Virus record (IMG/VR): IMGVR_UViG_3300025886_000163 | Coordinates: 1 to 23,896 of that record | From: a virus | Length of the DNA stretch: 23,896 bases | Direction: 5' to 3' (one strand) | Part shown: positions 24 to 23,839 of the stretch, in pieces | Layout: each line of letters opens with the position of its first letter | Position numbering within the stretch: the first letter of the stretch is position 1 | The notes under the pieces: generated by a model | Database searches by the model: none | The model's input: the letters and a program-made list of their open reading frames with translations, nothing else | Told to the model about the DNA's origin: nothing | Program-made: the position numbers and the translations under genes

Positions 24-1088
24 TTATGAATACGCCAATGTAGCAACTGCGTGAATTTTTGTTGAACTTCTTACAATGTAATCTATTCTATCTACGGCAC
101 TAGCAGTGGTTGTCATTGTTGGTGCAGTTCCAGCAGCAAAATCCCAAACACTTCCATAAGCAACTGTTCTAGAACCTGTACCATCTTGTACAACAAAAAT
201 ACTTCCAGTAGTTCCTGCTGTTAATTCAGCTGGATTTGCAAGTGTTATATTACCACTTAATGTTAATTCAAAGTTTGCGTTTCTATTTAAATCTAATATG
301 TGTGAACCAGCACCTAAAGACATTGCTTCAATATCTACTGATACACTATTATCGAAGTTTGTATTTTGTCCACCACCTACATTTGCAATCTCAGAAACAC
401 CAGTTACTTTTGGTGCAGTTAATGTATTGGGTGTTTCAAGGTTAGTTCCTCTTTCAAGAATTATTTTAGTTGTTGATACTCTTGCACTTGTGCTTGTATC
501 TTGAAATAAAAATCCATTTTCATCATTATCTTCTAATACGATAACATCTTCATTTTCTCTAATTAAAGATGAGAGTGTATCTTTTTCAAATAAAAGTTTT
601 TCACCAGCATTTGTTGCAGAACCATCTGTACCATCTAATAATATAACTGAACCCTCGTTGGAAAAATTACTATCAGTCCCCTCTAACATGATTGACCTGT
701 GGTCGTTTATCTGTCCTTCTTCATCAGTTATAACTCCAGACGTGGTTGATATATTACCATTGACTGTTACTGTGCCACCAAATGTTCCACCACTTGTTTT
801 TGATACTGTGTCTGCAACAGTGAACACGTCATACACAACTACTTCAACAATATCACTTGCGGCTAAAGATGCAAGACTACCTATTGTGTTTGCAGTTGAT
901 GTATTATAGTCTGTATCTCTTAGAAGTAAAACACCGTTTAGATATACATCTACATATGTACCATCTTGAAATTTAAGAGTTCTACTATTATCGTCTGCAC
1001 CACTGACAGATGTTTCACTACCTGACGCAGTATAGACAAATCTATCCCTAACCCCAAAACCGTCTGAACTTCTTCCTAAATATGGCAT
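24..1088 (-). CDS. tail fibre-like protein (354 aa)
   Basis: This is a marine phage fibre. The N-terminal part carries DGTYVDVYLNGVLLLRDTDY (42-61) and IGSLASLAASDIVEVVVYDV (69-88), a widespread head module, followed by the stalk strand GGTFGGTVTVNGN. Residues 132-171 hold two repeat units, MLEGTDSNFSNEG and LLDGTDGSATNAG, matching the 381-aa fibre and the gp7-like protein. The C-terminal 110 residues are a second familiar module: LSGNITLANPAELTAGTTGS, then DGTGSRTVAYGSVWDFAAGT and SAVDRIDYIVRSSTKIHAVA near the end. The ATG has AAGGA seven or eight bases upstream. The stop is 23 bases from the window edge and is followed by another promoter-like box, so the fibre block continues leftwards. 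Confidence 0.78.
   Translation of the reverse strand: MPYLGRSSDGFGVRDRFVYTASGSETSVSGADDNSRTLKFQDGTYVDVYLNGVLLLRDTDYNTSTANTIGSLASLAASDIVEVVVYDVFTVADTVSKTSGGTFGGTVTVNGNISTTSGVITDEEGQINDHRSIMLEGTDSNFSNEGSVILLDGTDGSATNAGEKLLFEKDTLSSLIRENEDVIVLEDNDENGFLFQDTSTSARVSTTKIILERGTNLETPNTLTAPKVTGVSEIANVGGGQNTNFDNSVSVDIEAMSLGAGSHILDLNRNANFELTLSGNITLANPAELTAGTTGSIFVVQDGTGSRTVAYGSVWDFAAGTAPTMTTTASAVDRIDYIVRSSTKIHAVATLAYS
603..629 (-). repeat. 27-base direct repeat shared with the 381-aa fibre gene
   Basis: This stretch is identical to 3066-3092 and in the same orientation. It encodes part of the DGTDGSATNAG unit. Outside this core the two fibre genes diverge quickly at DNA level. Confidence 0.75.
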
Positions 1089-1542: not shown

Positions 1543-2445
1543 CTAACTAAAAGTAACCACACCAGTTCCAGCTGTAAATGTTACCACTCCAGTAGTTCCT
1601 GTAGATGTTAAACCAGCACCAACACTAGCACTTATACCATCTGGTAATTTGATAATTACCAACCCAGAACCACCAGCACCATTTGTTCCATAACTAGAAC
1701 CATTATAACCAGTAGCACCACCACCGCCACCAGTATTCACAGTTCCACTTGTAGCAGTAGCAGCACCTCTTGCACCATTACCACCACCACCTGAACCGCC
1801 AGAACCAGCAGAACCACCAGAGTATGGGCCTCCATTTGGAGTACCACCTCCACCACCACCAGCACGAGTTACAGATGTACCAGAAATTGTTGATGCTCTT
1901 CCAGCACCACCACTTCCAGAATTACTACCAGAGCTATTAGCACCAACAGCAGATGCACCTCCTCCACCACCAGATGGAAAACTCCAAAAACTATATGAAC
2001 CAGAACCACCATTATTACCTTGATTAGCAGTTCCTGAACCAACAGAACCTTGACCATAACATTGTCCACCACCAGAGCCACCATTTCCACCACCGTCACT
2101 TGCTTCAGCATCACCAAAACCTGTACCACCTCCACCTCCTCCTATTGAAGTGACTGTTGCAAGTACAGAGTTAGCGCCTGGGTTTTTAGCAGATGCAGAC
2201 CCTCCAGCACCAACGGTTACGGTGTATTCAGTATTAGTTTCTAAAGATAAAGTAGTTTCAGCACTACCAGTACCACCAGAATTTTCACTATTAAAAGATG
2301 AACGATAACCACCTGCTCCACCTCCACCACCGTATGGCCCACCAGAACCACCACCAGCAATAACTAAAAATCCTGTTAAATCAAATGGTGTAGCTCCTGC
2401 TCCACCACCAGAACCAAACCCTAATGTAGTAAAACCAAAAGACAT
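1543..2445 (-). CDS. glycine-rich adhesin / fibre-tip protein (300 aa)
   Basis: This protein belongs to the glycine-rich phage proteins that begin with a short lead (MSFGFTTLGFGSGGG), then FLVIAGGGSGG (26-36), and close with GGSGLVIIKLP (258-268). Between them about half the residues are Gly, in runs of three to six, with Ser, Ala and Asn spacers and one non-Gly insert at about 59-101 (TNTEYTVTVGAGGSASAK). The C-terminus repeats GVVTFTAGTGVVTFS. Known relatives in design are gp38-type adhesins of T2- and S16-like phages, where polyglycine helices pack into a receptor-binding tip; marine proteins of this type have a similar look but no proven role. The plus strand shows it as runs of CCA and CCT triplets. 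It starts inside the stop of the 381-aa fibre gene. Confidence 0.75.
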   Translation of the reverse strand: MSFGFTTLGFGSGGGAGATPFDLTGFLVIAGGGSGGPYGGGGGAGGYRSSFNSENSGGTGSAETTLSLETNTEYTVTVGAGGSASAKNPGANSVLATVTSIGGGGGGTGFGDAEASDGGGNGGSGGGQCYGQGSVGSGTANQGNNGGSGSYSFWSFPSGGGGGASAVGANSSGSNSGSGGAGRASTISGTSVTRAGGGGGGTPNGGPYSGGSAGSGGSGGGGNGARGAATATSGTVNTGGGGGATGYNGSSYGTNGAGGSGLVIIKLPDGISASVGAGLTSTGTTGVVTFTAGTGVVTFS

Positions 2446-3590
2446 TATGCGTCATTCCCAGCATTTGTTGTAAAGAATAATTTGATACCTAAAAGTAATG
2501 CGTCTGCTGAAAAGTTATCTTCTGATACATCTCTTGAAATCTCAAAGAATACATATTCTTCTGCTACTGGAGTACCAGCAATTGTAATTGCACCACTTTC
2601 TCTTGTTATATTTAAATTATATGCGACACCACTATGTGCTTTTGCTTCTGCCTGAACAGCAGTTCCAAATGCAATATTTGTTAGTTCACCATCAGCAAGA
2701 CCAACACCAGCAAGTTTAAACGCAACTGTTCCTGTGTTTGTACTGTTTCCAGTAAAGTATGCTTTGAAAGATACTGTTCCTTCATTCCATGATTTGGGAA
2801 AAGATATAGCAAATTGTGCAAACTCATCTGAGTCTTTGTCAAATGCTATGTGTTTTAATTCTGGCCCATTACCTAATTCTGTTTGAGCAGCTTCAGCACC
2901 ATTTGTAGTATTACCATACATTGCATTTGCAGGCACCCATATAGTTTCTCTACCAGCAGATTTTAACGCACCATCAGTTATAGTAGGTACTGCACTGAAA
3001 TTAACATTATTACCTTCAAAGTAAGCAGTTGGGTCACCAGTTTCATCTTCATATAAAAGACTTGAACCAGCATTTGTTGCAGAACCATCTGTGCCGTCTA
3101 GTAATATTAAATCACCAGCATTTGCTGAACCATCTGTTGAGTTTATTTGTATTCCGTCTGCACTAGAGTCAGAACGAAGATTACCAGATATCTTAGTATC
3201 TCCACCAATGGTTGCAGTGCTAGTTGTTGTCAAAGCACCACTAGCTGTTACTGCGGCTGCAGTAATTGTTCCACTTGAAGTAAAGTTAGTAACACTGTCA
3301 CTATCTCTGCCGGGCACTGGTAATAATCCATTACCTATTACTGTAGAATTATTAATAACGTAAATATTACTTGAACCAGATGCTGGTGCAGAAGTAAAAG
3401 TTAATGTTCTATCACTTGTGGTATAAGCAACATCAGGTTCTTGTCTTACGTTTGCAACAAATACATCTATAGTAGCTGCACTTCCAGCACTTTTACTTAA
3501 AGTAAAAACGGTTTCTGAACCATCACCACTAAAGACATCTTTAGTTGGTGCAGAGAAAACAGCAGGTGGTGACGCTCCCAGATATGCCAT
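2445..3590 (-). CDS. tail fibre-like protein (381 aa)
   Basis: The N-terminus is a fibre head module common in marine phages: MAYLGASPPAVFSAPTKDVF, SGDGSETVFTLS (21-32), IDVFVANVRQEPDVAY (41-56) and LTFTSAPASGSSNIYVINN (63-81). A stalk with short Thr/Ala strands follows. Two consecutive NAG-type units lie at 147-186 (INSTDGSANAGDLIL, then LLDGTDGSATNAG). The C-terminal half (about 215-381) begins with IWVPANAMYG and includes FDKDSDEFAQFAISFPKSWN (245-264), a block I know from other marine phage fibres, probably a jelly-roll tip. The DGTD unit is identical in protein to that of the 354-aa fibre and nearly so in DNA. Its stop shares one base with the start of the glycine-rich gene (TAATG). Confidence 0.78.
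   Translation of the reverse strand: MAYLGASPPAVFSAPTKDVFSGDGSETVFTLSKSAGSAATIDVFVANVRQEPDVAYTTSDRTLTFTSAPASGSSNIYVINNSTVIGNGLLPVPGRDSDSVTNFTSSGTITAAAVTASGALTTTSTATIGGDTKISGNLRSDSSADGIQINSTDGSANAGDLILLDGTDGSATNAGSSLLYEDETGDPTAYFEGNNVNFSAVPTITDGALKSAGRETIWVPANAMYGNTTNGAEAAQTELGNGPELKHIAFDKDSDEFAQFAISFPKSWNEGTVSFKAYFTGNSTNTGTVAFKLAGVGLADGELTNIAFGTAVQAEAKAHSGVAYNLNITRESGAITIAGTPVAEEYVFFEISRDVSEDNFSADALLLGIKLFFTTNAGNDA
3033..3152 (-). repeat. NAG/DGTD repeat pair in the 381-aa fibre gene
   Basis: Two adjacent units encode DGSANAG and LLDGTDGSATNAG. A 27-base stretch (3066-3092) is identical to 603-629 in the 354-aa fibre gene, pointing to duplication or recombination between the fibre genes rather than chance. 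Confidence 0.75.
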
Positions 3591-4443: not shown

Positions 4444-4451
4444 TATTTATC
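4444..4451 (-). promoter_or_regulatory. late promoter-like box, upstream of a tandem pair
   Basis: GATAAATA on the minus strand, overlapping the stop codon of the 409-aa fibre gene. It is two bases from the exact box at 4435-4442, so the two may be alternative sites. Confidence 0.35.
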
Positions 4452-5676
4452 CAAGTGCAATTGCAAGAGCAGTTGGGTCGTCTGAACTGAATCCTTGTGC
4501 AGACATAAATGTTGTTAATCTTGATAATGCAGCTTTTTTGTTTGTTCCAGCAGCACCATCATCTACTATAATCAAATCACTTGATGTTAAATCTGCACCT
4601 ATATCTGAACCACCATCTATATCAATAGTTGCAAGTGGTAAAGTTCCTGTGTCACCAGAACCAATTAAAGTTCCAGTAGTAGTTGGAAAACTTATAAGTG
4701 CTTCTGTATGATTTATTTTATTTGAACCTAATACGATTGCGTGGTTACCCATATATGCGTGGTTGTAACACTGGTAATAAAGAATACTTGGTGTATCTTC
4801 ATCTACATCAATCTGTGTGTACGCACCAGAATTTCCTGGCGTACCACTTGTTGTTACTCCTGTTGAGTATATGGTGGTTTTGTCTGCATCAAGATAAAAT
4901 AATATTGGGTGTCCACTATTAGAACTGTCTGCTTGGTCAAACTTATAATAATATCCAGAGTCAGAAGTTGTATTATCTACACCATTTAATTGTAGTGCTG
5001 GTGATTCAACACCGTCTAAGAAATATGCACTACTACTTCCATCTCCATTGTATGGGTGTGCAGCTGTTTTACTTGCAACGGTAACAGTAATTGTAATCGG
5101 TGCAGATGAACTACCATAAGAACCACTAAGATTGTCTGCTTCTAATAATCCTATATCTCTAACATCATTGCCCTGACCATCAAGAAAACCTCCAAGTTGA
5201 GGCGTGGTATCTGAAACCACAGCTGTTAAACCACCAGCAGAACTGATTAGATTGTCAACTGTAATTCTTTTTAATGAAGATGCGTCTGCATCACTTACTA
5301 ATAATTCATCATTACCAGAAACAATATCACCAGAAGTAATAGATGTTTGTCCAGTAATAAATGTATTTGCAGTTGTTCCTGTGGATATTAATGTACCAGA
5401 TTCGTTAGGTAAGTTTATCGTTCTATCAGCAGTAGGGTCAATAACACCTAATGATGTTTCATTATCATCATCAGTTGAACCCTCAAATAGTATTGTGTCA
5501 GCACTAAACGTAGATGTAACTGTCAACTCTGCAACTGATATTGTTGTTGCAGATATATTTGTAAAACTTAAACTACCTGCTTCAATACCACTTACATCAG
5601 TTTGGAGTTTATTAAACTCTACTCTAAACTGTTCGAGTGTTGAAGTTGTAGTGACTTGTCCTGCTGTAATTGCCAT
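4447..5676 (-). CDS. tail fibre protein with cupredoxin-like module (409 aa)
   Basis: This protein is built like a marine phage fibre. A helical N-terminus (TSTLEQFRVEFNKLQTDV, 11-28) leads into strand repeats (FTNISATTISVAELTVTSTF), then INLPNESGTLISTG (87-100) and SDTTPQLGGFLDGQGNDV (155-172), common in fibre stalks. Residues about 200-317 form a distinct module: AAHPYNGDGSSSAYFLDGV, YYYKFDQADSSNSGHPILFY (242-261) and YYQCYNHAYMGN (300-311). H256, C303, H306 and M309 match the ligand order of type-1 copper proteins (His ... Cys-x2-His-x2-Met), and C303 is the only cysteine in the protein. The C-terminal 90 residues return to fibre-like sequence. The stop is followed by tandem late promoter boxes. 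A receptor-binding or stabilising role for the module is inferred; copper binding is not shown. Confidence 0.75.
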   Translation of the reverse strand: MAITAGQVTTTSTLEQFRVEFNKLQTDVSGIEAGSLSFTNISATTISVAELTVTSTFSADTILFEGSTDDDNETSLGVIDPTADRTINLPNESGTLISTGTTANTFITGQTSITSGDIVSGNDELLVSDADASSLKRITVDNLISSAGGLTAVVSDTTPQLGGFLDGQGNDVRDIGLLEADNLSGSYGSSSAPITITVTVASKTAAHPYNGDGSSSAYFLDGVESPALQLNGVDNTTSDSGYYYKFDQADSSNSGHPILFYLDADKTTIYSTGVTTSGTPGNSGAYTQIDVDEDTPSILYYQCYNHAYMGNHAIVLGSNKINHTEALISFPTTTGTLIGSGDTGTLPLATIDIDGGSDIGADLTSSDLIIVDDGAAGTNKKAALSRLTTFMSAQGFSSDDPTALAIALG

Positions 5677-13821: not shown

Positions 13822-16800
13822 TTACGGTGTTATACCAGTTGCACCCTCTAAATCTAAATTATCCCCACTTGTTTCTTCTAGTAAGAAACCATTTGAGGAA
13901 TCGTTTGTGTCTGTTCCATCTTCAAGTGCAATGTCACCAGTATCTCTAGTTGTAATAACAGATGAATGTGTTACTGGGTCATAACCACTACTTGTACTAT
14001 TTAGTGTGAAATTACTTAGTGGTATTGAACCAACACTTGGAAATACATTTGATGTTTCCATCAAGAATACTCTTGGGTTCTGGAGTATTTCATCTTCGTC
14101 AAGTTGTGATAGTAGTTTGAAACCAGCATCTGAACTAGAACTGTCTGTTCCATTTAATATAATAACATCACCAGCATCTTGACCTGTACCATCTTCTAAT
14201 AAGAAACCATCATCAATATCATCATCTCTTGTAAGAGAACTTTCTATTGCAAGGTGGTCTTGTCCACCTACTTGTGTTCCACTTTCTAGTAATATAGCTT
14301 CTAATAATGAGTTTGTTGAATAATCTTCCACAACTAAACTTCCTGATTCTGCTTCTAATGAAATACCATCTGCCTCTTCTCCATGAGCCTGACTTGATTC
14401 TGTCTGTCCATTGTCCCTATATTTTGTTTTATATTTTGTTTCTTCTTCTAACTCTACAAAGAACTCACTATCTTCTAGTGCGATAGGTGACTCTCCACCC
14501 TCTACTGAAATATGATGTTTAAATTCTAAATGATTAATGTCAAAGTTATTCTCTATAATAATCTTATCTCTTCTCAAGAACTCTGCAAATGTAAAACTAC
14601 CTATCTGACTTAATTGAACTGCACTACTTCTATTATCCTCTACGATTATCTTCTCACCAGCATTTTGTCTTGCCTGTCCAATCTGCACAACATAAGAATC
14701 TTCTGTGATTAATCTTGCAGTGTCAATATCATGTGAGTCTTCCATATTAATATTATCACCAGCATTAGAACCATCTGCATCTGTTCCATCTAATACAATG
14801 AAACCAAAACTCTCTGGAGCTTGTGTTGCGTTTAGTACAAGGTTGTCTGATACGAGAGGTGATGTTCCTTCCTCTGCAAGAAATAAATCTCCAGAGTCAT
14901 CTTCATTAAGAAGATTGTTAGATTCTAAATCAGTGTTACCAAAATCTTCTAGTCCTAGTACCAATCCATTCTCTAACTGAATACCAGTCACATCTTCAAA
15001 CTCAAATGTGTTTGTTGCAATGTGTGTTAATAGGTTTCTACTTTGTCTAACTGTTGGTTTGACACTTAATTTAACAACGTGTTCTTTCGCAAGTGTTTTC
15101 TCATTTAATCCACCCACACCATTATGAGCACTCTCTGACTTCATTACTCCACCAGCAACTTCATTGTCTACTACTGTTCCCTCAAAGAGTATGTCATCAC
15201 CTTGTTTAATGAAACCATCTTCTAGTGCAAACAGATTACCACTCTCATCAAGTATGTTATCGTATTCATCTGTGATTGAACCAGCTTCAACATCTAACTT
15301 ACCACCCTCATCATTGAACCCATCACTTGAGTTTAGAACTAAGTATGCAACATCATAATCATATCCATCTGGTTGAGAACCACTCTCTAATAATATTGAA
15401 ATATTACTTGGTGTATTAGATGCAGCTACTGATGATGAACCATCAAGGATTAAATTATCTCCAGCAACGTGTCCTGTTTCGTAAATGATTTTATCATCTC
15501 TATGCGTAATACCAGAGTTGTCTGCTTTTAATCTCATTCCAAAAACTTGTTCAAAGATATTCTCAAGAGCAGATGCAAGGATTGGTGAGAACTTCTCTTC
15601 GTAGCCAGGTACTTCAGAACCAGCAGTTTTAATACCAGCATTAAGTGCAGTTGCAATTGTCACTTTACCAAATGGTGCAAATCCAGCAGGGTGTACTGCT
15701 TTCTTTAATTCATTTAGATAAGAAGTTAATGACGCACCAATTTGAACTTCGTATGAATAGTCTTGATAGAAATAAGAATCTTGTATTCTAATTAAATCTT
15801 CACCGATAATACTTTCGATACCTTCATAACTTCCAACTGATGTTGAAATAGTATCTACAACTGTTGTTCCTTTTGCAATGTCAGCTTTAATAATTGTACC
15901 AGACGCACCACTCGAATCAGTTATTGTAACATTCTTTTTAGAAAAGTCAATACCACTTTCGTGTATGATATCTGAACCAACATCTATACCAGATGCAGAT
16001 TGGTCATAAACCATATTACCATTACCAGTTTCATCTGGGAATAATAATGAACCCATTGCATCTGTTCCATCTGAGTCTGTTCCATTTAATATAAGTAAAT
16101 TACCAAACTCTTCTGTAGATACTCTATCGTTCTCATCTCCACTATTACCAGCTTCAATCACTAGGTAACTAGAGTTAGGATTATTCTCTCTGTATCTGTT
16201 AAGTAATAGTTTACTATTTGCGTGTTGTACTTGTTCGTTGTGATTACCTTCTAAAAGTATTTCACCACTGTTATCTTCTTGTATAATATTTCCAATAGAA
16301 GTAAAAGGTATTGTTCCTTCTTCTATTGTAATATTGTATGTCTGTTTACTTTCACCATCTAATAAAATAGAACCACCAGTTTCAAGTAGTATACCCTCAC
16401 CATCATCAAAGTCTAATTCATCTTCAAGTAAAATACCTTGAGGTTCTAAAATAGTTGTACCAGCCTCTAATGCAATCTCTTCGTTGAAAGTTCCTTCTTG
16501 TTCCTGTACCGTTCTGATTACATCTTCAAATGTTGTGTCAAGAACTTTCGTGTTGGTGTCAAAACCTTTAACTACACCAGTGTGAGTTGTTAAAGTATTA
16601 GTTGCAGAGAATGTTCCTGTAACGTCTTTAAGAATAAAGTGAGCTCGTAGTTCTATCTCTGGAGGATTATTACTTAAGTAATTAAAACCTGTATTGTTTA
16701 CATTGATAGATTTTGCAGAACCAATATCATTTGTTAATGCAGTAAGAGCTGCACCTGTACCACCTGTACTTGTAATTGTAACAGTTGGTAAATCTGAATT

Positions 16801-18324
16801 GTAAAGTCCACCCTCTGATAAGAATATTCTTTGTATAGAACCTCTCTCTGCTGTAGTGAAAGTATCTTCTTCTAAGAACAGTCTATCATTTGGAGTTCCG
16901 TATGTGTCGTTTGTTGTAACGACTGTATCAGTAAGTAATGAAAACCCAGCATTAGAACTTGTTGCATCTGTTCCATCAAGTATGATATCATCATTTGCAT
17001 TTGCACCATCTACATCTGTTCTATCTAAAACAATATTAAATGACTCTTCTGACGCAGTTGTTCCATCTTCTATAATGATTACATCTGATGTAACTTCAGA
17101 GTCATCTAGTGTCCCAGCTTCTAATTGTATACCACCACCAATTACACTGACAAAACCAGCTGCAGATTTAGTATCACTCTCTGAAGTTGTAAAGGTAAGA
17201 ACATCTCCTACCTCATATCCAGAACCAGCATCATCAACTATGACTTCACTTACCGAACCACTTGTGATACCACTCACAACTAACTCTGCTTTGTTGTTTC
17301 CTAAGTTTTCTATCTCTACAGGTTCTTGGTCTGTGTGAAGAATACCAGTATTAATAAGTGATGCAGAAGACAGTATAGCTTCTACAGTAAATGAAACATC
17401 AACATCTCTTACAGTAGAGTTTGCAGTTATTGTTTCACCGTCTTGAAATACTCCATCAATATTTGCAAGTTCTAGTTCTGTAACAGATTGTGTTCCCTCT
17501 TGAAATGTAATCGCATCATTAACAATTGCAGTAGCACCAGAAGTCTGTGCAGTAATCTTTTGATTGATAATCTCATCACCAGACACACCAGCAAAACCAG
17601 AACATCTTAAGATTGTTTCCGTTCTCCAGTCACCATTCGACACACGCAACATATGTTCTGTGGGATAGAATATGTTTGCTTCTTCTCCAAGTAATATTCT
17701 AAAGAATAGTTCGTGTCCTTCTTTTGTACCTTTAGCTGAATACAAGTCTTTAATGTTCTTAAGTAATTTTCTTTTTGATACACTAGTTGCAAGTGACTCT
17801 GGTATGGAGGTCATTAATGAAGAACGCATCTGGTCTAAGAAATCAAAGATAGTATTATCTACATCTGCATACTCTAAAAGTTGTTGTATGTTTTGTATAG
17901 GGTTTGCACGATATTGTGTGATACTTCCTTGAGCATTAGAAGTTTGTCCAGTAAATGTTTCACCAGTAATAAACTTTTGTTGTGACGATATATAAAGTCT
18001 TTTGTTTCTTGAATCTTCTACAAGTATTGTTGCAGTTGCATTTGATGTTTCACCTTTTACAATTTCACCATTTGTAAATTGTGCAGTATCTTCTGTAAGT
18101 ATCCTATCACCATCTTGTTCATCTAACACATACGCAGTCGTTGTTGTTTCATAACGCACATAACTGTTTACAACTGTATATGTAACTTGACCTGCTTCTA
18201 AAAACTTGTAATACTCTTTTAAGAACTTAACAAAAATTGGGTGGTCAGCCTGTATAAAATCAGGCACCTGTCCTTCTATAAGTGGTGAAAGTTTAGTCTG
18301 AAGTTTTGACTTTTCATCTGCCAT
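13822..18324 (-). CDS. 7: very large gp7-like baseplate wedge protein with internal repeats
   Basis: The position between gp6 and gp8, and two conserved blocks, point to the gp7-type wedge protein of marine T4-like phages. Block one is residues 10-215, with LSPLIEGQVPDFIQADHPIF (12-31), FLKEYYKFLEAGQ, and KLLKNIKDLYSAKGTKEGHE (186-205). Block two is about 850-930, with YQDYSYEVQ then HPAGFAPFGKV (878-888). The remainder, some 900 residues, is acidic and low in complexity. It is built of short strands of the type ILLEDGT or IALEDSE, with at least five copies of an (L)DGTD...NAG unit: 431-464, 744-767, 1176-1196, 1387-1405 and 1465-1488. Two beta modules of the GETSNATA type lie at 86-135 and 249-300. 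T4 gp7 is about 1030 aa, so this protein is much longer. T4 gp7 initiates wedge assembly and bridges the inner and outer baseplate; the repeats are probably surface-exposed. Confidence 0.75.
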   Translation of the reverse strand: MADEKSKLQTKLSPLIEGQVPDFIQADHPIFVKFLKEYYKFLEAGQVTYTVVNSYVRYETTTTAYVLDEQDGDRILTEDTAQFTNGEIVKGETSNATATILVEDSRNKRLYISSQQKFITGETFTGQTSNAQGSITQYRANPIQNIQQLLEYADVDNTIFDFLDQMRSSLMTSIPESLATSVSKRKLLKNIKDLYSAKGTKEGHELFFRILLGEEANIFYPTEHMLRVSNGDWRTETILRCSGFAGVSGDEIINQKITAQTSGATAIVNDAITFQEGTQSVTELELANIDGVFQDGETITANSTVRDVDVSFTVEAILSSASLINTGILHTDQEPVEIENLGNNKAELVVSGITSGSVSEVIVDDAGSGYEVGDVLTFTTSESDTKSAAGFVSVIGGGIQLEAGTLDDSEVTSDVIIIEDGTTASEESFNIVLDRTDVDGANANDDIILDGTDATSSNAGFSLLTDTVVTTNDTYGTPNDRLFLEEDTFTTAERGSIQRIFLSEGGLYNSDLPTVTITSTGGTGAALTALTNDIGSAKSINVNNTGFNYLSNNPPEIELRAHFILKDVTGTFSATNTLTTHTGVVKGFDTNTKVLDTTFEDVIRTVQEQEGTFNEEIALEAGTTILEPQGILLEDELDFDDGEGILLETGGSILLDGESKQTYNITIEEGTIPFTSIGNIIQEDNSGEILLEGNHNEQVQHANSKLLLNRYRENNPNSSYLVIEAGNSGDENDRVSTEEFGNLLILNGTDSDGTDAMGSLLFPDETGNGNMVYDQSASGIDVGSDIIHESGIDFSKKNVTITDSSGASGTIIKADIAKGTTVVDTISTSVGSYEGIESIIGEDLIRIQDSYFYQDYSYEVQIGASLTSYLNELKKAVHPAGFAPFGKVTIATALNAGIKTAGSEVPGYEEKFSPILASALENIFEQVFGMRLKADNSGITHRDDKIIYETGHVAGDNLILDGSSSVAASNTPSNISILLESGSQPDGYDYDVAYLVLNSSDGFNDEGGKLDVEAGSITDEYDNILDESGNLFALEDGFIKQGDDILFEGTVVDNEVAGGVMKSESAHNGVGGLNEKTLAKEHVVKLSVKPTVRQSRNLLTHIATNTFEFEDVTGIQLENGLVLGLEDFGNTDLESNNLLNEDDSGDLFLAEEGTSPLVSDNLVLNATQAPESFGFIVLDGTDADGSNAGDNINMEDSHDIDTARLITEDSYVVQIGQARQNAGEKIIVEDNRSSAVQLSQIGSFTFAEFLRRDKIIIENNFDINHLEFKHHISVEGGESPIALEDSEFFVELEEETKYKTKYRDNGQTESSQAHGEEADGISLEAESGSLVVEDYSTNSLLEAILLESGTQVGGQDHLAIESSLTRDDDIDDGFLLEDGTGQDAGDVIILNGTDSSSSDAGFKLLSQLDEDEILQNPRVFLMETSNVFPSVGSIPLSNFTLNSTSSGYDPVTHSSVITTRDTGDIALEDGTDTNDSSNGFLLEETSGDNLDLEGATGITP
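13861..17034 (-). repeat. DGTD...NAG protein repeats in the gp7-like gene
   Basis: Dispersed copies of a roughly 18-residue unit occur at 16933-17034 (a tandem pair), 16024-16095, 14737-14799, 14110-14166 and 13861-13932. The core is a hydrophobic pair, then L(D/N)GTD, four polar residues, NAG or DAG, and a short hydrophobic strand. The clearest copy is VLDGTDADGSNAGD. The interval given spans all copies; the sequence between them is unique. Confidence 0.7.
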
Positions 18325-23302: not shown

Positions 23303-23839
23303 TTAGAAACTAGAAAGATTACCAGCAATCATGATTCTTTCATGGTCGCAAGTATGCTCTGGAACTTCGTGATGTAACCAGCCAGGGAAGATAGTCATGG
23401 TACTTACAGTAGGTGTCACACGATAATTTGCGTGAGTAAAGACTAAAGGACTGCATTGCTCACACCCACTGACGCAATACGTCCAACTCCAAGTATCAGG
23501 CCAGTGCGTATGACTATTGGTGAACTGACCTTTACCGTATATCAATCCCCAAGAGGTAGACACTTTATACTGAGTAGGGTTCTGTGTTCCGTCTTCGTTG
23601 GTTCTGGTTGCAAGAGGTAACAACTGTGCAAGACCTATAGCTGCATTACTTAACATACGAAACGCCTTAGATTGGTGATGCATATCCCAACGAGTCATCA
23701 TACACTGTGCAGAAGGGTTTCGCATTCCCAGACTATCTCCAGCAGTTCGGATATCTTCCTCTAGTATCTTATTCAGGTCTTCTACATTCGTCAGAGTTTC
23801 CGTATGGACAGGAAAACTTTCATCAAATTTAATCATCAT
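23303..23839 (-). CDS. 2OG-Fe(II) oxygenase-like protein
   Basis: This 178-aa protein resembles the short phage 2-oxoglutarate/Fe(II) dioxygenases of the 2OG-FeII_Oxy_5 type. The C-terminal half has the expected order: a His cluster at H110/H112 (SHTHWPDTWSWTY), a following beta strand (PLVFTHANYR), the FPGWLHHEVP motif with H156/H157, and R168 in HERIMIAGN, the usual position for binding the 2-oxoglutarate carboxylate. Which histidines bind iron cannot be settled by eye. The N-terminal 100 residues look like the usual helical lead-in. The start is ATGATG with a GAGAGA-type ribosome site upstream. It lies just upstream of the baseplate genes. Such enzymes are common in marine T4-like phages, where the substrate is mostly unknown; hydroxylation of a protein side chain is one option. 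Confidence 0.75.
   Translation of the reverse strand: MMIKFDESFPVHTETLTNVEDLNKILEEDIRTAGDSLGMRNPSAQCMMTRWDMHHQSKAFRMLSNAAIGLAQLLPLATRTNEDGTQNPTQYKVSTSWGLIYGKGQFTNSHTHWPDTWSWTYCVSGCEQCSPLVFTHANYRVTPTVSTMTIFPGWLHHEVPEHTCDHERIMIAGNLSSF

Follow-up and report, generated by a model that had tools for sequence, protein, structure and literature searches.

The 409-residue tail fibre protein encoded in the window (the whole 23,896-nucleotide stretch of viral DNA analysed here) probably includes a cupredoxin domain whose type-1-like metal site is complete, and a copper-stabilised surface module, with copper binding inferred from the site, is its most likely nature. The computed support consists of the predicted fold, the placement of the ligands by strand order, and the joint conservation or loss of His256, Cys303, His306, and Met309. 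The gene lies at 4447..5676 on the minus strand, as do all the features of the fibre described below, and was identified by its open reading frame, its match to PHROG 30742, and its setting among tail genes. The cupredoxin-like domain within it covers residues 193-317 (4726..5100), as delimited by the AlphaFold model and its Foldseek/PDB and VIA matches. A separate module at residues 200-317 had been proposed in the sequence-only reading; the module proved real, but it begins at about residue 193, since the first strand of the model covers residues 194-202. Model residue i corresponds to protein residue i+182, so model residues 12-134 are residues 194-316 of the protein and the domain is placed at about 193-317.

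Translation of 4447-5676 confirmed that the four residues noticed earlier stand where they were claimed to stand, in the order His...Cys...His...Met of the type-1 ligand set, in which Met is the usual last member. His256 (4909..4911), the predicted first metal ligand, is located just ahead of strand 5, is invariant in the 302 domains of the family with four ligands, and aligns with the His of the PHN motif in the copper-protein profile. Cys303 (4768..4770), at the end of strand 8, is the predicted thiolate ligand and, as had been stated, the sole Cys of the 409-residue protein. His306 (4759..4761) is the predicted second His ligand, with a Cys-to-His spacing of 3 in 302/302 domains, and Met309 (4750..4752) is the predicted axial ligand, with a His-to-Met spacing of 3 in 301/302 as in amicyanin. 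The Cys-His-Met motif of the fibre reads YYQCYNHAYMGN, and its C-x2-H-x2-M form was fixed across the 302 copies while loops elsewhere varied. All close viral homologues covering each position (80 to 86) carried the identical four residues, so the pattern is not accidental. Asn311, which falls at the plastocyanin Met position in an ungapped alignment, was rejected as the axial ligand since it varies among homologues whereas M309 does not. A further residue, His207 (5056..5058), which lies in the loop joining strands 1 and 2, was invariant only in the subgroup of modules to which the window belongs, where it is His in 86/86 close homologues; other subgroups have V, T, N, Y, or a gap. The signature around it in the window subgroup is HxYxGxGSS, and His207 might be a further ligand or a second-shell residue.

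For the fold prediction, homologues were collected from viral contigs, 66 of them were aligned, and the module of the window was modelled. The AlphaFold model had a mean pLDDT of 85 and a pTM of 0.80, with nine strands, no long helix, and a core of pLDDT >90 covering most of the domain. Strands E76-79, E116-121, and E129-134 of the model, compared with H74, C121, H124, and M127 in the same numbering, place H256 before strand 5, C303 at the close of strand 8, and H306 and M309 in the loop ahead of strand 9. By strand order, the predicted structure thus appears to have the type-1 arrangement, with the first His before a central strand, the Cys ending the penultimate strand, and the second His and the Met in the next loop. 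The ligands of plastocyanin, azurin, and amicyanin are placed in this same arrangement. The Greek-key β barrel of about eight strands that defines the cupredoxin superfamily was recovered in the nine-strand model and in its Foldseek and VIA matches.

Searching the PDB with the model using Foldseek returned cupredoxins, copper nitrite reductases (CuNIR), or multicopper oxidases in 50/50 of the top matches listed, with rusticyanin as the best (E 2.4e-4) and with amicyanin, plastocyanin, and nitrosocyanin also among the matches listed. The three-domain nitrite reductase 2dv6 has an extra cupredoxin domain at its N-terminus, and with this domain VIA-align gave a Z of 8.2 across 101 residues (17% identity). 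The single scores of these comparisons are moderate, and it is the uniform list of copper proteins returned by the model that convinces. With a Z near 8, a Foldseek TM near 0.4, and an rmsd of 4-7, the modelled module is a divergent member of the cupredoxins. The suggestion that the fibre carries a cupredoxin fold therefore held at the level of the model, for which prediction and fold search gave only cupredoxin-type matches among those listed. The model also matched two 'Beta-sandwich protein' entries of BFVD, A0A481YWX9 and A0A481Z6J5 from Marseillevirus and Pithovirus, at a TM of about 0.62.

Sequence profiles, which are independent of the model, pointed the same way. A profile search of the PDB gave two matches only below E=10, both of them weak and both copper proteins, namely the CuNIR 4kns (E 0.1) and the pseudoazurin 3tu6 (E 0.66), the latter aligned across the Cys-His-Met loop. 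Profile-profile alignment with plastocyanins and pseudoazurins taken from genomes and with amicyanin set H256, C303, and H306 on their ligands, with a pairwise E of 1.5e-4; the Met falls beside a gap in this alignment, and the equivalence of M309 rests on its spacing and conservation for this reason. The only match of a single-sequence search of the PDB, to a desmoglein, was judged meaningless.

Across the family the four residues are kept or lost together, and this behaviour favours metal binding by most of the copies. Scanning every locus, with a ligand-lost copy and distant relatives also used as starting points, gave 418 domains, among which the His-Cys-His-Met set was complete in 302, an exact proportion that is biased because two of the collection scans used motif-containing patterns favouring ligand-bearing copies. 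The bias matters less for the finding that partly stripped sites are rare. A single Cys was present in 299 of the 302 four-ligand domains. Nearly all of the other copies not cut by a contig end had lost the whole set, with Asp usually replacing the Cys. Because ranking conservation within the His-Cys-His-Met set would be circular, the all-or-none count over all copies was used instead. After clustering at 60% identity, 44/54 clusters had all four ligands, 6/54 had none, and 4/54 had a partial set; the 50/54 all-or-none clusters compared with a mean of 26.6 and a maximum of 34 upon column shuffling, a null that leaves descent out. The Cys, His, and Met did not vary freely among homologues, as nearly all of the 418 domains kept or lost them as a set. 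A tree calculated with the ligand columns masked demanded at least 6 steps for the change of the site, 3 of them forced by well supported branches, so the site disappeared repeatedly, on at least 3 to 6 occasions. For one ligand-lost relative the predicted model was of unusable quality (pLDDT 45), so its fold rests on sequence similarity.

Among the individual copies, one locus (L170) has a partly stripped site, in which Cys is changed to Ser and His to Asp while H256 and the Met are kept. Several proteins carry one copy with the site plus another copy without it. Such partly stripped sites and such mixed proteins were noted among the loci L170, L281, L282, L236, L283, and L085. A large ligand-lost family with the motif NISYYFDPSR (L307-L386, about 330 bases each) occurs around residue 1000 in a very large structural ORF of cyanophages, and 480 candidate stretches on viral contigs encode a relative.

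Residues 183-324 of the fibre matched PHROG 30742, 'tail fiber protein', with E=1.7e-39, and the gene is flanked by baseplate and tail genes of a T4-like myovirus, encoding gp6-, gp8-, and gp25-type wedge proteins and a hub/lysozyme. Both the family similarity and the tail-gene context thus identify the 409-residue protein as a phage tail fibre. The nearest relatives of the gp6-like protein of the window were found in Methylophilales phages of the Melnitz group (50%), followed by the Pelagibacter phages Mosig and HTVC008M, and the window is taken as a piece of a Melnitz-group myovirus on this ground. The family profile matched the 409-residue fibre alone, and no second copy of the module was found within the window. 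The fibre cluster also encodes a 300-residue protein rich in glycine runs (1543-2445, PHROG 2295), which recalls the polyglycine adhesins of T-even phages. The motif ILLDGTDxSxxNAGxxLL is repeated across three structural proteins of the window (24-1088, 2445-3590, and 13822-18324). A 2OG-Fe(II) oxygenase gene (23303-23839) adjoins the baseplate genes; S-H38 and P-HM1 likewise have such genes close to proteins with the module, and P-RSM1 has a prolyl 4-hydroxylase gene in that position.

The module occurs widely among phages of ocean cyanobacteria and SAR11-like bacteria, in their structural proteins. A tblastn search with the S-TIM5 copy as the query recovered it from at least 280 of 50,697 phage records, all of them marine by name and listed as Synechococcus, Prochlorococcus, cyanophage, Pelagibacter, Methylophilales, marine, uncultured, and one unclassified phage from seawater; enteric phages were absent from the tblastn matches listed. 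Both myoviruses and Autographiviridae podoviruses are among the carriers, and the module sits in tail fibres, gp7, gp9, and other structural proteins, such as that of S-TIM5 two genes from the portal. The plasmid collection gave no match to the module. Marine cell genomes gave many matches on viral-looking contigs and some apparently cellular copies, in very large ORFs of flavobacterial chromosomes (L209, L212) and in short proteins of Ca. Actinomarina that look secreted (L206, L207). One of the latter (L206:3358-4270) looks by eye like a lipoprotein with a Ser/Thr-rich linker and a four-ligand domain, and its gene is upstream of an ORF that resembles, also by eye, an NADH/cytochrome-b5 type reductase. 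This protein is a possible cellular redox relative; Pfam gave no match for it.

The window module had no match to the Pfam family Copper-bind (PF00127), for which the domain of P-HM1, the nearest phage relative, scored 20.1 bits against a gathering cut-off of 21.2. A cellular, bacterial domain (L242) scored above this cut-off and grouped with the P-HM1 phage domain with 99% SH-aLRT, which is the best link to the curated Copper-bind family. The Pfam search with the module gave only a sub-threshold At5g54830-like domain and weaker chance matches, which were set aside, and the NCBIfam search with the module gave no match.

On the copper-stabilised reading, one copper ion would be bound at the site in most copies. 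Since the cytosol holds almost no free copper, loading would probably take place after lysis or from the envelope. The ion may then make a small barrel, exposed at the surface of the virion, more rigid, and with less confidence we suggest that the barrel is a movable module of fibres and baseplate proteins, used for host contact or mechanical stability. The barrel may have been acquired from bacterial copper proteins. The domain can serve without metal, since several lineages kept it and lost the site. Both the surface and the stabilisation roles are only inferred.

A cupredoxin fold with the same four residues could instead hold zinc, another metal, or nothing in seawater, with the ligands holding the loops or serving assembly. 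In vitro, type-1 sites can also be occupied by Zn, Hg, and other metals, the phage particles are assembled in a copper-poor cytosol, and ligand-lost homologues exist; nevertheless, an empty site is at odds with the retention or loss of all four residues jointly and with the strict Cys-His-Met spacing, and two His with Cys plus Met are typical of Cu rather than Zn, which makes this alternative unlikely. The fold and the ligand set are those of electron carriers, and the Ca. Actinomarina relative adjoins a reductase-like ORF, as would suit a redox-active site at the host surface that takes electrons from or docks to host partners, or delivers copper as a copper 'Ferrojan horse'. Against this stand the occurrence of the module in gp7, gp9, and other structural proteins beyond the fibre tips, the lack of a known partner, and the identification of the reductase and the lipoprotein by eye in a locus whose protein Pfam does not recognise. 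We regard a redox role, or the delivery of copper to the host, as unsupported and quite improbable. The Ig-like fold is, like that of the cupredoxins, a Greek-key sandwich, one P-HM1 protein with module copies is annotated as PF07686 (Ig V-set), and the MED4-213 match bears the UniProt name 'Immunoglobulin domain-containing'; an ordinary Ig-like β-sandwich decoration domain with a chance motif is nevertheless disfavoured to the point of being very improbable, as the 50 top PDB matches listed were copper proteins, the listed Foldseek and VIA matches included no Ig domain, and the ligands stay or disappear together.

In cells, blue copper proteins are known to carry electrons or to form domains of enzymes. 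The literature searched, which consisted mostly of papers available without subscription, yielded no description of a phage virion with a cupredoxin or blue copper domain; the fold is old, and its use as a phage virion module with an intact site is undescribed in that literature. In database records, the proteins with the module go under tail fibre or hypothetical, with PF07686 in one case, and the family has long been visible in cyanophage genomes under other names. With an intact-site domain spread across the structural proteins of abundant marine phages, virions could be loaded with copper, which makes copper per virion and a coloured module testable predictions and would give a new angle on host contact and the marine copper pool. 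A bolder and rather doubtful extension is that many marine phages have working type-1 copper sites on their virions and use copper, through redox or copper-sensed folding, in host attachment or triggering; if true, metallated virions would be a feature of ocean phages and the marine copper cycle would be linked to infection.

Compared with known systems, the module shares its predicted fold and the ligand order His...Cys-x2-His...Met with amicyanin, plastocyanin, and pseudoazurin (PF00127), which are small exported electron carriers, whereas the module is part of a phage fibre. The sequence-only reading had compared it with plastocyanin through the 47 residues between the first His and the Cys; the distance was confirmed, but the agreement carries little weight, because the distance runs from 31 to 76 among the 302 four-ligand domains, with 47 the commonest (175/302). 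Plastocyanin has C-x2-H-x4-M, unlike the C-x2-H-x2-M of the fibre, whereas amicyanin (C92-TP-H95-PF-M98, checked against PDB 1aac) has exactly the spacing of the fibre. The module also differs from these three proteins in the Pro after the first His and in the extra invariant His207 of the window subgroup. This Pro was found in 283/302 copies in place of the Asn (or Ser) of the plastocyanin and azurin type; Asn is usual after the first His in plastocyanin and azurin, and Pro at this position occurs in the type-1 sites of laccases. The best structural matches, the N-terminal cupredoxin domains of 2dv6 and 6tfd and rusticyanin, belong to enzymes or soluble carriers, with identities to the module of 17% and 12-16%. 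PHROG 30742 includes the segment of the fibre that holds the module, and PHROGs gives it no copper-protein relationship. Like the Ig-like modules of other phages, the module is a small β-sandwich placed in varied tail and baseplate proteins, but its fold is matched by cupredoxins and it has a metal site of four residues, which sets it apart from them.
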